Shown in pieces: positions 38,700 through 44,688 of a DNA stretch of 64,000 bases. The stretch's first letter is position 1; the number at the start of each line of letters is the position of its first letter. Source of the stretch: Thermus caldilimi (lineage in GTDB: Bacteria > Deinococcota > Deinococci > Deinococcales > Thermaceae); contig NZ_CP038452.1 of assembly GCF_004684245.1 (NCBI RefSeq), positions 248,001-312,000 on the forward strand, given 5' to 3'. The notes below the pieces were generated by a model that was not told the DNA's origin, did no database searches, and saw only the letters and a program-made list of their open reading frames with translations. The translations under genes and the position numbers were made by a program.

Positions 38700-38702
38700 G
38701 CA

Positions 38703-38730
38703 CCCCGCCCTGACTCAAGCTGCGGCGGGG
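38703..38730 (+). terminator. Probable polA terminator hairpin
   Basis: CCCCGCC (38703-38709) pairs with GGCGGGG (38724-38730) around a 14-base loop right after the polA stop, followed by TTGATGTG. A second hairpin (GGCCCC/GGGGCC, about 38760-38776) follows. U-tracts are weak. Confidence 0.45.
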
Positions 38731-38851
38731 TTGATGTGTGCCTGGCCCCGGACCCAAGCGGGCCCCTCACGGGGCCGGAAGGGGACTCCATGCCTAGGGG
38801 AACGTGACCTCCTTCCAGAGGCAAAGGGGGAGTAATGCTTAGCCTAGGGGC

Positions 38852-40366
38852 ATGGAATCCTTAGGGCCCGTCCTCCGCGCCCTGGAGGCGGGGCGGGAGG
38901 GGGAGGCGGAAGCGCTCCTCGGCGCCCTGCTCCCGGCGGGGCCGGAGGAGGCGGCGGAGGCCCTGGCCCTGAGGGGCTTCCTCCGGGGGAGGAGGGGGGA
39001 CCTCCCGGGCTACCGCAGGCTCGCCCTGGAGGCCGCGAGGCAAGCCCCAACCCCCTTCACCCTCTACCATCTGGGCCTGGCCCTGCCCCCACGGGAAGGG
39101 GTGGTGGCCCTGGAGGAGGCCCTCCACTGCCTCAGGGGAGACCCGGAGGGGGAGGCCCGCCTCCACCTGGCCCTGGCCCGGGCCCGGGAGCTTCTGGGCC
39201 AGGAGGCGGCCCTGGCCCACGCGGCCTTGGCCCAGGCCAAGTGGCCCACCCCCTGGACCTATCTCCACCGCCTGAGGCTGGAGCTCCTCTTCGGGAAGAT
39301 GCCCCTAGGGGAGGTCCTGGCCGGGGCGGAGAGTTACACCTTCCACCCCTACCCTGGGGTGCGCCTCCTGGCGGGCTTCACCCTCCTCCTGGCCCACCTC
39401 CTCCGGGGGAGGCGGGAGCAGGCGGCCGCGGCGATGCGGGGCCTGCTGCCCAGCCTGGGCCCCGGGGCCTACGGGAGCTTCCTGGGGGAGGGGGTCCTGG
39501 CCCTCCTGGGGGAGCCCGAGCTGGCCCTTCTTTTGGAGGGGGCCAAGGCCGCCCTGCCCGAGGGGAGGCAGGGTTACCTGGCCCTGGGCCGGGGGCTCGC
39601 CCTCTGGGAAGCCTACCCTGAGGAGGCTTACCCTCACTTGACAGAGGCGCTGCTTTGCCTGGGGGAAGGCCCCGGGGTGGACCGCCCCCGGGCCCTCCTG
39701 GCGGCCAGCCGCCTGGCCTGGTCCCGGAGCACACCCCTTCCCCCTGGGTTCCAAGGCTTGGCCTTGGCCCTCCGCCCCGAGGCTCAACGCCTCTACCTGG
39801 GTCCCTTGGCCCCAGAGGCGGGGGGCTTCCGGGCCCTGGGGGAAGCCCGGCTTTTCGGGAAGCCCCTGCCCCTCAGGCAGGCCGAGCTTCTGGTCCTCCT
39901 CCTGTTTAGGCCCGAGGGCTGGAGGGGAGAAGCCCTGGCCCTGGCCCTCTACGGGGAAGCGAATACCCCCGCCCTGCGCATGGAGCTCCATCGCCTGCGG
40001 GCGCGGGGGCTTGCTGTGGCGAGCCGCCCCTACCGCCTCCTCTCCCCCTTACGGGCGGACTTCCTGGAGGTGAGGGAAGCCCTGGAACAGGTGGACCTCC
40101 CCCGAGCCCTCCAACTCTACCGGGGCCCCCTCCTCCCCAGGAGCCAGGTCCCGGCCATAGAGGAGATGCGCGGCCACCTGGAAGAAGCTTTGCGCCATAA
40201 GGTCCTGGCCTCGGGGAACCCCCTCCTCCTGGAGGGCCTAGCAGAGCGGCTTGGGGACGACTTAGAGCTCTGGGAGGCCCTCCTGGAACGCCTCCCTCCC
40301 CTGGACCCCCGGCGCCCCGCGGTCCTGGCCCGGGTGGGGCGGCTCCGGCGGGAATGGGGCCTCTAG
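38852..40366 (+). CDS. SARP/BTAD-like transcriptional activator
   Basis: The 504-residue protein begins with TPR-like helical pairs (EGEAEALLGALLPAGPEEAA, FTLYHLGLALPPREG) over about 300 residues. The C-terminal third has a winged-helix module: LFGKPLPLRQAELLVLLLFR, GEALALALYGEANTPALRME, LHRLRARGLAVASRPYRLLS. A BTAD-like tail follows (DLPRALQLYRGPLLPRSQVP). This C-terminal layout resembles actinobacterial activators of dehydrogenase operons. ATG 38852 lies 6 bases after TAGCCT, so it is probably leaderless. The direct-repeat operator array at 40503 is the obvious candidate target; there is no ATPase domain, unlike the regulator at 7324. Confidence 0.75.
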   Translation: MESLGPVLRALEAGREGEAEALLGALLPAGPEEAAEALALRGFLRGRRGDLPGYRRLALEAARQAPTPFTLYHLGLALPPREGVVALEEALHCLRGDPEGEARLHLALARARELLGQEAALAHAALAQAKWPTPWTYLHRLRLELLFGKMPLGEVLAGAESYTFHPYPGVRLLAGFTLLLAHLLRGRREQAAAAMRGLLPSLGPGAYGSFLGEGVLALLGEPELALLLEGAKAALPEGRQGYLALGRGLALWEAYPEEAYPHLTEALLCLGEGPGVDRPRALLAASRLAWSRSTPLPPGFQGLALALRPEAQRLYLGPLAPEAGGFRALGEARLFGKPLPLRQAELLVLLLFRPEGWRGEALALALYGEANTPALRMELHRLRARGLAVASRPYRLLSPLRADFLEVREALEQVDLPRALQLYRGPLLPRSQVPAIEEMRGHLEEALRHKVLASGNPLLLEGLAERLGDDLELWEALLERLPPLDPRRPAVLARVGRLRREWGL

Positions 40367-40479
40367 CCCCGCGGGGGCCAGCACCCCAGGTCCAGGCAGG
40401 CCAGGTCCGGGGGGTGCCCCAGGGCGAGGGCCCAAAGGAGAAGAACCGCCAAAAGGAGGAGGTGCACCCACCGCTCCAT
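40363..40479 (-). CDS. Possible 38-residue membrane peptide
   Basis: On the minus strand from ATG 40479: MERWVHLLLLAVLLLWALAL followed by GHPPDLACLDLGCWPPRG. One helix plus a tail with two Cys. GGATGGGGG stands in front as a weak ribosome site. It is divergent from the operator array and overlaps the convergent regulator gene by 4 bases. It could be a real small membrane protein or chance; no homologue is known to me. Confidence 0.3.
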   Translation of the reverse strand: MERWVHLLLLAVLLLWALALGHPPDLACLDLGCWPPRG

Positions 40480-40502
40480 GCCCCCATCCTGCTCGGAAGG
40501 GC

Positions 40503-40594
40503 GTAACGTCCGGGAGGCTAAGGTAACGTCTGAGGGCAAAAGGTAACGTCTGACCAGGGAAGGTAACGAAATTTACCTCACCGGTTCGTTACCT
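40503..40594 (+). promoter_or_regulatory. Operator array: four direct repeats of 20-bp period plus an inverted copy
   Basis: GTAACGTC at 40503, 40523 and 40543 and GTAACGAA at 40563 are spaced exactly 20 bp. The last unit AGGTAACGAA (40561-40570) is mirrored by TTCGTTACCT (40585-40594), making a palindrome with a 14-bp centre. The following gene starts at 40614, five bases after TACCCT. Tandem repeats at whole-turn spacing are the hallmark of SARP-type activators and of other oligomerising regulators; the adjacent gene at 38852 encodes such a protein. Confidence 0.8.
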
Positions 40595-40613
40595 CCTCCC
40601 TGCTACCCTGGGG

Positions 40614-40877
40614 GTGACCCTGAAGGGGGTGGGGGAGATGCTCCAGGAGGTACAGGAGGTCAAGGTGGGCGGCCGGACCCGGCGGGTGCACGTGCGGCCC
40701 TTTGCCTGGAACCTGCACGCGCCCACCCACATGGAGTGGACCCCGGACGGCAGGCTCCTGATTTCGAAACACACAGGGGACACCATCCGGGACACAACGG
40801 ATAACTCTATTACACACGACTTGAGCCAAGTGCAATTTAACTCTAAAGGAAAAAAAAGAAAGGAGAAAAATCCATGA
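40614..40877 (+). pseudogene. 5' stub of a propeller-type gene, truncated by the foreign insert
   Basis: From GTG 40614 about 60 residues have Thermus composition: LKGVGEMLQEVQEVKVGGRT, then PFAWNLHAPTHMEWTPDGRL, LISKHTGDTIRD. The block HAPTHMEWTPDGRLLIS is typical of NHL/sorbosone-dehydrogenase-like propeller proteins. After about 40800 the composition changes abruptly and the frame adds some 25 unrelated residues before a TGA at 40875-40877. That stop overlaps the ATG of the next gene (ATGA), so ribosomes reading the stub could couple into the insert. The missing 3' part is not found at the right end of the insert. Confidence 0.6.
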
Positions 40878-41629
40878 GCGCACCGATCACGAAGAGCACT
40901 GCTGAAGTGAAACTACTAAGGGTTGGTGAGTCGGCAACGACGGGGCTCCCATGTTTCATCTATCACGACCCCTATCACGAGCGCTTTGTCAACCATGTTC
41001 GCTCACTGGTGGCCCAGAACCTGCCCGTTCTGGTCCGTCTGCATCCGGGGTGGAACTACCCTGCAGAGGAGGACATTCTCCGTAAGGAAGTCGACCGAAC
41101 TGGGCACGCGGTGCTGGTGGTGGGCTACGATGATGCTGCCGAGGAATTCATTCTTCTGGACCCGTGGGATCAAAGCCGCTGGGGGGGAAGCAGGGGCGGG
41201 GAGTGGCGCATTGGCTACCGTGAGTTCGGCCTCTTTACCGTGGACTGTACTAAGGACGCTGTGATTGTCGGTGACTTGCCGAAAGTGGAAATCCAGTTCG
41301 ACGGCGTGGATAAACTCCGATGCAACGTCACGTATTCCTGTCCCGAACCTCTCTTCCAGACCTTTATCGCAGAGGAGGCATTCCTGACGCTGACCGTGCC
41401 AAAGGGCATGCAGCTGAACGCAGACGGGAATCGGATATGCCTTGGCCAGCTGCAGCCAGGGGAAACGTGCTCCGTGGTTATTCCCGTGACCCTGGGATAT
41501 CCTGTAAACGGCGAGATTACGGCAGAGATCGAGTTCGTCATCCGCTCCCTTTGGTTGCGAGACTGGAAGGAACCAGTCCGGGTCGCCTCCCGTTATCGTA
41601 TCACTGTCATCGAACGGGCCCTGGTCTAA
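40874..41629 (+). CDS. C39-like peptidase, C-terminal half plus beta-sandwich domain
   Basis: Start ATG 40874 after AAGGAG (40860-40865), in AT-rich sequence. The 251-residue product holds the second half of a papain-like C39_2 domain: NHVRSLVAQNLPVLVRLHPG, then TGHAVLVVGYDDAAEEFILL with the active-site His (His78), and DPWDQSRWGG with the acidic partner (Asp96). The first half, with the nucleophile and its Gln, is absent. Residues about 140-250 look like an Ig/CARDB-type sandwich (LTLTVPKGMQLNADGNRICL, GQLQPGETCSVVIPVTLGYP). No signal peptide. Composition and codons are foreign to Thermus. It cannot be an active peptidase alone; it may be a truncated gene or pair with the half at 43017. Confidence 0.65.
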   Translation: MSAPITKSTAEVKLLRVGESATTGLPCFIYHDPYHERFVNHVRSLVAQNLPVLVRLHPGWNYPAEEDILRKEVDRTGHAVLVVGYDDAAEEFILLDPWDQSRWGGSRGGEWRIGYREFGLFTVDCTKDAVIVGDLPKVEIQFDGVDKLRCNVTYSCPEPLFQTFIAEEAFLTLTVPKGMQLNADGNRICLGQLQPGETCSVVIPVTLGYPVNGEITAEIEFVIRSLWLRDWKEPVRVASRYRITVIERALV

Positions 41630-41720
41630 GCAAGTGACCCATGGCCCTACTGTACGCCGCATTCCGTCATCTCAAAGGAAGCCACGCTTCTCCAAATACC
41701 GGCTCTCTGGGGAGCGTTTC

Positions 41721-42959
41721 ATGTATGAAGCCATCGCCACCTTGATGACCAGGCTGGGGCTTGCGCTTTTCGCCCGAAACCCCACCTTCTCCTACTTTTT
41801 CCTCAGCAGGACCTCATCCCGCATCGGCGAGAACGTGTTCTCCCTTGCCGTCCCGTGGCTGGTGTTTCAGCTGACGGGCAGCGCCCTGCAACTTGGGCTG
41901 GCCTTTGCCGTCCAGGTTGTCCCTTCGCTGCTGCTGGCTCCCTTTGCTGGTGTTTACGCGGACGCTGCTTCAAGGACAAAAGTGATACTCGTTGCGGAAA
42001 GTTTCCGGGCCCTGCTCGGTCTGGCTGTGGCTGGGCTGTCGCTCCTGGGCAACTTGCAGGCGTGGCACCTGTACCTTGCTGTGGTGGCCCATGCGGTAAC
42101 CGCCAGTTTTCTTACCGTCGCAGCCGGGGCTGTGGTCCCGACCATCGTTGACCAGGTGGACCTGACACGCGCCAACGCGCTGCTCAGGTTGAGCCGCAAC
42201 GCGTGCGACCTGTTTGGCAAGGTTATGACGGGCGTACTCTTAGCCTGGGTAGGCCCGGTGTACACGTTCATGGCGAATGCGGCCTTGTCTGTGGCGTCGG
42301 CGGCTCTGTTGCCGATCCGTCGCATGGACGGGGAATCCCTAGTGGTGCGGGGCCGGCGGCCAAGGGTACTGCAGGATTTCGTGAGTGGGGTGGGTATCCT
42401 GCGCCGCCACGGCGCGGCTTTGCTCGCCATGGCCGATCTGGTGGTGGTCAACGTCGGTATTCCGGTTCTGGTAATAGCCCTGCCCGTTGTTTCTGAACAG
42501 GTTCTGCGCCACGGCGCCGCTGGCTATGGGTTCCTCACCGGGGCGATGGCGCTCGGGGCCATCGCTGCGACCCTGATGGCCACTCCACTGGCGGGGCGGA
42601 TGGACGAGCACCGGTTGTCCGGGCTTGCCACGGTCCTGTTCGGCTTCCTGGTTGGGTCCCTGGGCTTCCTCGGGGGACTGGAGGGGTGGTTGCTGGCGGT
42701 GGCGCTCGCCGGTCTGACGGCCGAATTGGTTTCGGTCTACACGGCCAGCATCCTGCAGCGGACCCTGCCTTCGGAGGTCCTGGGCCGGGCCTTTGCTGTT
42801 CAGTATGCGGCCCTACGGGTCATCCCTGTGGTCGTGTTCCTAAGTGCCGGTGCGGTTCTCCAAAGGTTCGGCGTCCAAACGCTCTTGATCTTGGGTGGTT
42901 CGGCAACCGCCCTCATCGCGGCGCTCTTGCTCTACATCAGGGTGCGCGGTGCGCAATAG
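41721..42959 (+). CDS. MFS transporter (probable drug/peptide exporter)
   Basis: ATG 41721 has GGGGAG six bases upstream; the earlier GTG 41634 has no good site. The 412 residues carry about 12 membrane helices in two six-helix halves. The start FFLSRTSSRIGENVFSLAVP, WLVFQLTGSALQLGLAFAVQ and the loop FAGVYADAASRTKVILVAES (MFS motif A, degenerate) fit the MFS_3/enterobactin-exporter-like group. The second half has TASILQRTLPSEVLGRAFAV. Such proteins often export peptides or antibiotics from biosynthetic clusters. Composition is foreign. It lies between the two C39-like halves. Confidence 0.85.
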   Translation: MYEAIATLMTRLGLALFARNPTFSYFFLSRTSSRIGENVFSLAVPWLVFQLTGSALQLGLAFAVQVVPSLLLAPFAGVYADAASRTKVILVAESFRALLGLAVAGLSLLGNLQAWHLYLAVVAHAVTASFLTVAAGAVVPTIVDQVDLTRANALLRLSRNACDLFGKVMTGVLLAWVGPVYTFMANAALSVASAALLPIRRMDGESLVVRGRRPRVLQDFVSGVGILRRHGAALLAMADLVVVNVGIPVLVIALPVVSEQVLRHGAAGYGFLTGAMALGAIAATLMATPLAGRMDEHRLSGLATVLFGFLVGSLGFLGGLEGWLLAVALAGLTAELVSVYTASILQRTLPSEVLGRAFAVQYAALRVIPVVVFLSAGAVLQRFGVQTLLILGGSATALIAALLLYIRVRGAQ

Positions 42960-43016
42960 GGGAGCGGGGAGGTGGGGTTCCAACAAAGCCATCCGGGCTA
43001 AGGAGGTGATGGAAAG

Positions 43017-44600
43017 ATGAAGCTGCGGTGGATCCAGTACATCCAAGGAGTCCCACGGTATCCTGTTCTGGTCGGCGACACTGTCATGATCGTGGCATAC
43101 AACCGGACAGTACACCAGTACGAGGCGATGGCCTACTGCTCCCACAACGGGGAGCTCAGATGGAAGGTGACCCTCCCTGCCGGCGGTTACGGACGCCCAG
43201 TAACGGACGGCTCGAGACTTTACTTGCTCTGGGGCCAGTCCGGGTTGGCTGCCCTAAACGTCGAGAACGGTGACCTACAGTGGGCGTGGAAAACACCCTG
43301 GCGGATCAGGAGCGGCCCGGCTCTTTTTAAGGATATGGTCTACCTGTGTGCTGGAAACTGTCTCATCGCTGCCACCAAACAGGAAGGGCGGGAGACACGA
43401 AGGTTCCAGGTGGGGCAAACATTTCTGTTCGGCAACCCCTGCGTCTCCCTTTTTGACTCCCGCCCTTTGTTGTTTGTGTTGGGTACGGAACCGTCAAACA
43501 ATTACCTGTACTGCGTTTCCCTAGACGACACGGGAGTACCCGTCAGCCTTGAGTGGAAACGGCCGATAGGTAAGACCGGGGTCGTGACGTCGGAAACGGC
43601 CGGACCTGCTGTGAGCGCTGGCCGTGTCGTGGTCGGATCGCTCGACGGCACAGTTACCTGCTTCGCGTGCGCCACGGGACAGGTGCTGTGGACAGATCAC
43701 GTGGGGGAAGTCACGATTCGTAGCGCTGCCTTTACAGATGGGGAACGTGTTTACATCACCACGCTCGGGGGCTCCATCCTCGCTTACGACCTGCACACGG
43801 GGGTCCGGCTGTGGGGGCGACAAGTGTACGCAGAGGGGATTTGGGCCCCTCCGGCCCTGGCGGCCAGACATCTGATCGTCCTGGGCGGCGGTGTCCTGGA
43901 AGCCCTTGACCCGGCCAACGGGTCATCCGTGGCACAAGTTGCGGTGGGCCATGGCCCCTACTCCGCCCCCGTTCCCGCCGGAACTCAGGTATTTGTGGGT
44001 GGTGGGGATCCCCCGTTCACAGGCTATCTCTTCGCAGTGGACCTAGCGGTGACCGATTCCACCATCGTGGCGGACCCAGACCTTGCCGGTCTTGAAATCC
44101 AGCCTAGTGATTGGGAAATTCAGATTTCCTTCCAGGTTCCACCTTTGGTTACGGACCTCTGGCTCGATGGGCGGTCCCTGGGAGCGGACGCGGTGATTCG
44201 TCCCTCACGTCAGGCAGACCGGGCTTATTTTCGCTTCGCGCTTGCGCCCGGCAAGCGCATCGGAAAATATGCCCTCCCTGTTGCACTGCGGCACCAAGAT
44301 GGGCTCATCTGGCACACGATTTTTGTCGATCTCGGAATGAACCGTGGACCTGCAGTGGGGTTACCCCAGCAGGCACAGGTCTCGCATCTCACCTTGGAGC
44401 ACCAGGCCGAGCCAGCTGCCAGCGGTGCTGCAGCGTTAACTATGTTGCTTGGGCATTTTGGGCTGAAGGTATCCCAGCAGCACGTTAAGGAGATGGCGGA
44501 CCGTCTGGTGGAAATGTGGCAGGTGGATCCACACCACAAGTGGGCGGGTGTGGCAATCCGGATTGCCCATGCAGGCACCCGCGATGTGCAAGCGAGGTAG
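43017..44600 (+). CDS. PQQ-type propeller protein with N-terminal half of a C39-like domain at its end
   Basis: ATG 43017 after AAGGAGGTGATG. The 527-residue product has seven or so PQQ_2-type blades from residue about 1 to 345 (YLLWGQSGLAALNVENGDLQ, WLD-type repeats such as TCFACATGQVLWTDHVGEVT, ILAYDLHTGVRLWGRQVYAE). A beta-sandwich follows (about 360-440), then the first half of a C39_2 domain: LTLEHQAEPAASGAAALTML with Gln463 and, where the catalytic Cys belongs, Ser469, then LGHFGLKVSQQHVKEMADRL. It stops at 44598-44600 in mid-domain, just where the fragment at 40874 would continue. No signal peptide. The composition is foreign. It may be a binding scaffold for a peptide or an inactive relic. 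Confidence 0.7.
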   Translation: MKLRWIQYIQGVPRYPVLVGDTVMIVAYNRTVHQYEAMAYCSHNGELRWKVTLPAGGYGRPVTDGSRLYLLWGQSGLAALNVENGDLQWAWKTPWRIRSGPALFKDMVYLCAGNCLIAATKQEGRETRRFQVGQTFLFGNPCVSLFDSRPLLFVLGTEPSNNYLYCVSLDDTGVPVSLEWKRPIGKTGVVTSETAGPAVSAGRVVVGSLDGTVTCFACATGQVLWTDHVGEVTIRSAAFTDGERVYITTLGGSILAYDLHTGVRLWGRQVYAEGIWAPPALAARHLIVLGGGVLEALDPANGSSVAQVAVGHGPYSAPVPAGTQVFVGGGDPPFTGYLFAVDLAVTDSTIVADPDLAGLEIQPSDWEIQISFQVPPLVTDLWLDGRSLGADAVIRPSRQADRAYFRFALAPGKRIGKYALPVALRHQDGLIWHTIFVDLGMNRGPAVGLPQQAQVSHLTLEHQAEPAASGAAALTMLLGHFGLKVSQQHVKEMADRLVEMWQVDPHHKWAGVAIRIAHAGTRDVQAR

Positions 44601-44688
44601 AACTCGCCGGAATTCAGTCCAGGTCTTCCATAAGTCCACACCGGTAGACCCTGCCCGAGGCTCAGGAGCTTAGGAGCCGTTCCCATGC

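Follow-up and report, generated by a model that had tools for sequence, protein, structure and literature searches.

Papain-like domains are normally single chains, and in the papain fold the active site lies between the two lobes. A C39 peptidase acts by cleaving a leader behind a double glycine. In HlyB-type type 1 secretion ABC transporters, a C39-like domain without the catalytic Cys is used in export. SERA5 (PMC4671257, PMC5500368) and silicatein (PMC6233156), two papain-like proteins in which Ser occupies the Cys position, are eukaryotic, of the papain/cathepsin type, and encoded by one gene each.

We analysed a stretch of 64,000 nt (hereafter, the window) from Thermus caldilimi, whose genome is Thermus-like, 2.45 Mb in length and contained in one contig. 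The window held a foreign cassette (~40795–44655) with three ORFs at the coordinates given in a first-pass annotation of the same DNA. Two of these ORFs carry parts of a C39-like domain. The cassette resembles Peptidase C39 and C39_2 (PF03412, PF13529; e.g., the ABC transporter PCAT1) in the order of the elements, with a Gln six residues before the nucleophile position, a Gly after it, and His and Asp in the second lobe. It differs in having Ser for Cys, in being distributed over two genes, in its propeller-Ig carrier and in not being fused to a transporter. The C39-like domain of HlyB-type proteins is one chain within an ABC transporter, whereas the cassette encodes two separate chains accompanied by an exporter of varying type. 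The Cys to Ser replacement is shared with SERA5 and silicatein, neither of which is of the C39 type or split, unlike the cassette. Propeller repeats are common to gene 3 and BamB-like PQQ propellers (PF13360), but gene 3 showed no signal peptide and has Ig-like and C39-like parts attached to its propeller. The features of the cassette were as follows:

40795–40873, + strand: left border and 5′ leader of the cassette, a promoter-like region with the ribosome site AAAGGAG; host homology ends at ~40794
40874–41629, + strand: gene 1 (251 aa), C39-like second half (R-lobe, His78/Asp96) and Ig-like C-terminal domain, assigned from Pfam and the homologues in genomes G505 and G171 (below)
40940–41203, + strand: C39-like half in gene 1 (residues 23–110), assigned from dN/dS and His/Asp conservation
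41721–42959, + strand: gene 2, MFS exporter (MFS_3, E = 1.3e-25)
43017–44600, + strand: gene 3 (527 aa), PQQ-like beta-propeller (PQQ_2, E = 7e-24), Ig-like domain and C39-like first half, assigned also from the G505 fusion
44379–44597, + strand: C39-like half in gene 3 (residues 455–527), the helical L-lobe, corresponding to Pfam C39 positions 4–39
44601–44655, no strand: right border of the insert; the L009 copy is homologous up to 44593, and host homology starts from 44656

The foreign origin proposed in the first-pass annotation was borne out by GC3, which was 0.67–0.76 in the three cassette genes versus 0.87–0.92 in the flanking genes. The borders proposed there (40797–44650) were right to within a few bases: comparison with other Thermus genomes showed that Thermus DNA runs to ~40794 and that host homology begins again at 44656. 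The whole event at this site was larger, however, since polA directly adjoins glmM in the nearest Thermus relatives (e.g., G044, G047 and G025) and the two genes are separated by ~6 kb in the window. The insertion event (~38.7–44.66 kb) thus also introduced the Thermus-type DNA that lies left of the cassette.

Window positions 38702–40794, between polA and the cassette, consisted of Thermus-type DNA that was absent from relatives at this site and contained a 504-aa gene and a truncated ORF. Many Thermus genomes contained several copies of the sequence of the truncated ORF, which ends at ~40794. Upstream of the cassette, at 40503–40600, there were short GGTAACG repeats (GGTAACGTCTGA and variants).

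Gene 1 matched positions 88–143 of the 143 in the Pfam profile Peptidase_C39_2 (E = 8e-5, 23.7 bits; cut-off 24). Gene 3 matched positions 4–39 of the 133 in Peptidase_C39, with E = 0.0096 and 16.2 bits for the full-length protein and E = 3.9e-4 and 20.7 bits for its tail alone (cut-off 22). Each half of the window domain, taken alone, was just under the curated Pfam cut-off. The codons of His78 (41105–41107), Asp96 (41159–41161), Gln463 (44403–44405) and Ser469 (44421–44423) were found at the residue positions named earlier, and gene 1 and gene 3 each possessed their own ribosome site. The C-terminal domain of gene 1, which had no Pfam match, we take to be Ig-like from its strand pattern. Structure models of the window proteins were poor (pLDDT 34 and 53); in these low-confidence models, three helices were seen in the gene 3 tail, and gene 1 contained mainly strands plus helices. 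With low confidence, the models place the break between a helical lobe (the gene 3 tail) and a mainly beta lobe (gene 1). For gene 2, the real start is probably 41721 rather than 41634; its nearest NCBIfam subfamily was TIGR00900 (E = 6e-50, below the cut-off of that subfamily).

An intact version of the domain was found in G505, a Bacillota-group genome, as a single 840-aa propeller-Ig-C39-Ig chain with Ser at the Cys position. Along this chain, the propeller and an Ig domain come first, then the first half of C39, a linker of ~45 residues, the second half of C39 and another Ig domain. Gene 3 was 35% identical over 530 columns to residues 31–541 of the fusion (E = 8e-72) and gene 1 was 38% identical to residues 600–797 (E = 1e-35). 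Aligned to this chain, the window halves did not overlap, and only the ~45-aa Pro-rich linker was missing; the Thermus break lies inside this linker. Searching for an intact propeller-C39 fusion and aligning the junction, as the first-pass annotation had recommended, thus revealed neither an overlap nor a large missing middle, and its view of the halves as complementary parts of one domain held. The G505 fusion (37.9 bits) and G171 gene 1 (32.3 bits) scored above the profile cut-off. The joined window halves did so as well (28.5–31.9 bits), but a control join in reversed order also passed with about the same score (31.2 versus 31.9), and the score of the joined halves was therefore not used as proof.

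The catalytic Cys of Peptidase C39 and C39_2 was absent: the Ser noticed earlier in its place in the window was also found in the other Thermus copies, G505 and G457. The conserved Gln, His and Asp were all present in the alignment columns: the Thermus copies, G505 and G457 retain both Gln and Ser, and every lineage having the gene 1 half retains His and Asp. The domain was encoded by two genes in Thermus and in the G171/G457 lineage; only G505 had it in a single chain. In the PDB, C39 chains of bacteriocin ABC transporters gave weak sequence matches. A DUF6125 gene (Pfam E = 1.9e-71), at L025:2176-2709, immediately precedes the G505 fusion gene.

Four other Thermus genomes contained these three genes, with matching ends, at 85–89% DNA identity. 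These were the only positives, besides the window's own genome, among 50 genomes of the family, and a search of 111 Deinococcota genomes yielded matches only in the same five Thermus genomes. Homology among the Thermus copies starts in the leader and ends only a few codons from the gene 3 stop. In two genomes, the cassette lies in an 8.4-kb unit (L009:6628-15028 and L012:6628-15028) that was 99.96% identical between them and had different surroundings; the shared core of this unit was also found in L010 and L011. Each end of the unit carries an IS481-type copy, and another transposase gene interrupts the right-hand one. These end copies were 78% identical to each other, and the best NCBIfam family for the left-end transposase was IS481 (204.5 bits; cut-off 224). 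Both copies of the unit were read to their outer ends and were flanked by 5-bp target duplications, GGTTC and CCTAG. Near-identical IS481-flanked units at different sites with 5-bp duplications indicate that the cassette moved as cargo. In these respects, the L009/L012 unit resembles IS481-flanked composite transposons, from which the window copy differs in having lost, or never had, the flanking IS481 copies; no IS481 transposase was found flanking 40795–44655 in the window. The window leader aligned with the L009 leader, with 2 of 500 shuffles scoring as well. In L009, the IS481 end stops at the leader start and is followed by TTGACA-18-TATAAT.

At a third site, T. caliditerrae (L015:6710-8072) possessed nothing of the cassette but the exporter and the opening residues of gene 3, with 97.7% identity to the window; a new in-frame leader was observed there before the exporter. 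A 4.6-kb contig (L013) binned in the Bacillota MAG Bu84 was 99.96% identical to the Thermus element. It may be a stray Thermus contig and was for this reason not counted as a separate lineage.

Distant relatives proved to be few. A sample of 398 genomes from the phylum of Bu84 yielded one new relative, G171; the class of G171 (37 genomes) added G457, and the class of Bu84 (154 genomes) added G505. Two repeat draws from the Bu84 phylum comprised largely the same genomes and gave no new member. Plasmid searches gave only general propeller matches or nothing, viral contigs contained no relative, PADLOC gave no match and no description of this system was found in the literature. The family is rare.

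The G171/G457 lineage was ~30% identical to Thermus in gene 1 and showed the same split and the same gene order, with an ABC exporter replacing the MFS one. In G171, gene 1 stands alone (273 aa) and has a ribosome site of its own; the ~530 bp before it contained no relic of C39 or of a propeller. Gene 1 is followed by a propeller gene, which an IS200-type element has broken, and then by an ABC transporter. G457 was ~95% identical to G171 at the DNA level over parts of the locus, and its propeller gene was also broken. The C39 first half of G457 could still be read and had Ser at the equivalent position; when aligned to the Thermus half, it beat all of the shuffles (2000/2000). No second half comes after this first half, and the next gene is an intact ABC transporter. 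The exporters near the module were thus of three kinds: MFS (Thermus), ABC exporter (G457) and ABC-2 genes (near the G505 fusion).

In the C39 second half, Thermus was 49.5% identical to fused G505 and 41.9% identical to split G171, and G171 was the furthest from both. It is unlikely that the domain was split twice, independently, at one place and in one reversed order, and these three lineages, compared with no outgroup, therefore give a hint, and only a hint, that the split is older and the one-chain G505 fusion derived.

We estimated selection as dN/dS (NG86) between the window and L009 copies. Gene 1 gave a ratio of 0.31, gene 3 one of 0.25 and the exporter one of 0.40; against the T. caliditerrae copy, the exporter ratio was 0.25. 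The C39 half of gene 1 (residues 23–110) was its most constrained part (0.12, bootstrap 0.03–0.28), and the first 22 residues of gene 1 had diverged fast. For the C39 half of gene 3, dN/dS was 0.22 over residues 456–512 and 0.29 over residues 456–527 (bootstrap 0.14–0.74). No broken reading frames were found in the window and L009 copies of the cassette. Both halves are under purifying selection and not drifting freely; the constraint may in part date from an earlier host.

On balance, we lean towards reading the cassette as an old two-chain variant of the propeller-Ig-C39-Ig module, with its lobes split over two genes and with a role, more plausibly non-proteolytic, in exporter-side substrate handling. 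The C39-like domain would be divided at the lobe boundary, so that the Gln/Ser lobe ends gene 3 and the His/Asp lobe opens gene 1. Two cytoplasmic chains would assemble into one domain with a Gln-Ser-His-Asp site, and the propeller and Ig domains would serve as a scaffold. Since Gln, Ser, His and Asp are all kept, the two-chain domain is likely the working form. The module could then bind or transfer a peptide-like substrate, which the neighbouring transporter (MFS here, ABC elsewhere) would export; a role in export is suggested by the presence of neighbouring transporters whose type differs between lineages. By analogy with other C39-like and papain-like domains without Cys, non-proteolytic handling of the substrate for export is favoured. 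A split Ser-variant made of two chains, offered as an alternative in the first-pass annotation, is thus supported as a reading by the split shared with G171/G457, the retained Ser and the intact fusion in G505. Speaking against a two-chain module, G171 and G457 are partly broken, no distant split copy is wholly intact, and T. caliditerrae keeps only the exporter. The earlier comparison with a RiPP-like locus was right about the exporter. No modifying enzyme was recognised among the three cassette genes with Pfam/NCBIfam profiles, and no precursor peptide was recognised in the cassette, which has little intergenic room; a precursor could lie elsewhere. Without one in the cassette, a RiPP role is not supported.

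The assembled domain might instead be an active enzyme, a Ser-type papain-like hydrolase or acyl transferase with Ser469 as nucleophile and His78/Asp96, acting on the exported compound. Every copy with the relevant half has Ser at the Cys position, Gln, His and Asp are all kept and the His/Asp half is strongly constrained, as such an enzyme would predict, but SERA5, a well-studied papain-like protein with Ser, has kept the fold and is reported to be non-enzymatic (PMC4671257, PMC5500368). We regard this activity as unlikely. The same doubt attaches to a papain-like Ser enzyme whose site is completed only by two separately encoded lobes, with the two-gene form older and G505 a later fusion.

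It seems more doubtful still that gene 1 and gene 3 act independently, with half-domains that fold alone or were recruited for some other contact and never form one C39-like site. Separate genes with ribosome sites of their own and the fast divergence at the start of gene 1 would fit independence, but what has been conserved is precisely the four positions of the active site, divided between the two chains, and G505 encodes a one-chain version.

That the halves are leftovers of one truncated propeller-C39 gene, functionless as a pair and produced by a circle opened inside the gene or by trimmed tandem genes, is improbable and largely refuted: their reversed order at the two cassette ends, the loss of homology close to the gene 3 stop and the intact fusion elsewhere fit such an origin, but diverged Thermus copies share the same ends, both halves are under purifying selection with unbroken frames, and distant G171/G457 has the same two separate genes in the same order. 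Homologues that are separate genes with shared start and end points were what the first-pass annotation had itself named as refuting this origin. A truncation or circle private to this insert was rejected, with the same ends in four Thermus genomes and the same split in G171/G457.

If the two-chain reading is true, the cassette would represent a natural, selected split between papain lobes with Ser in the active site, and thus a compact test case for a protein site shared by two genes. It would also bear on what C39-like domains do after loss of the Cys, and would mean that what looks like an odd, broken domain in a mobile insert can be an old and functional arrangement.
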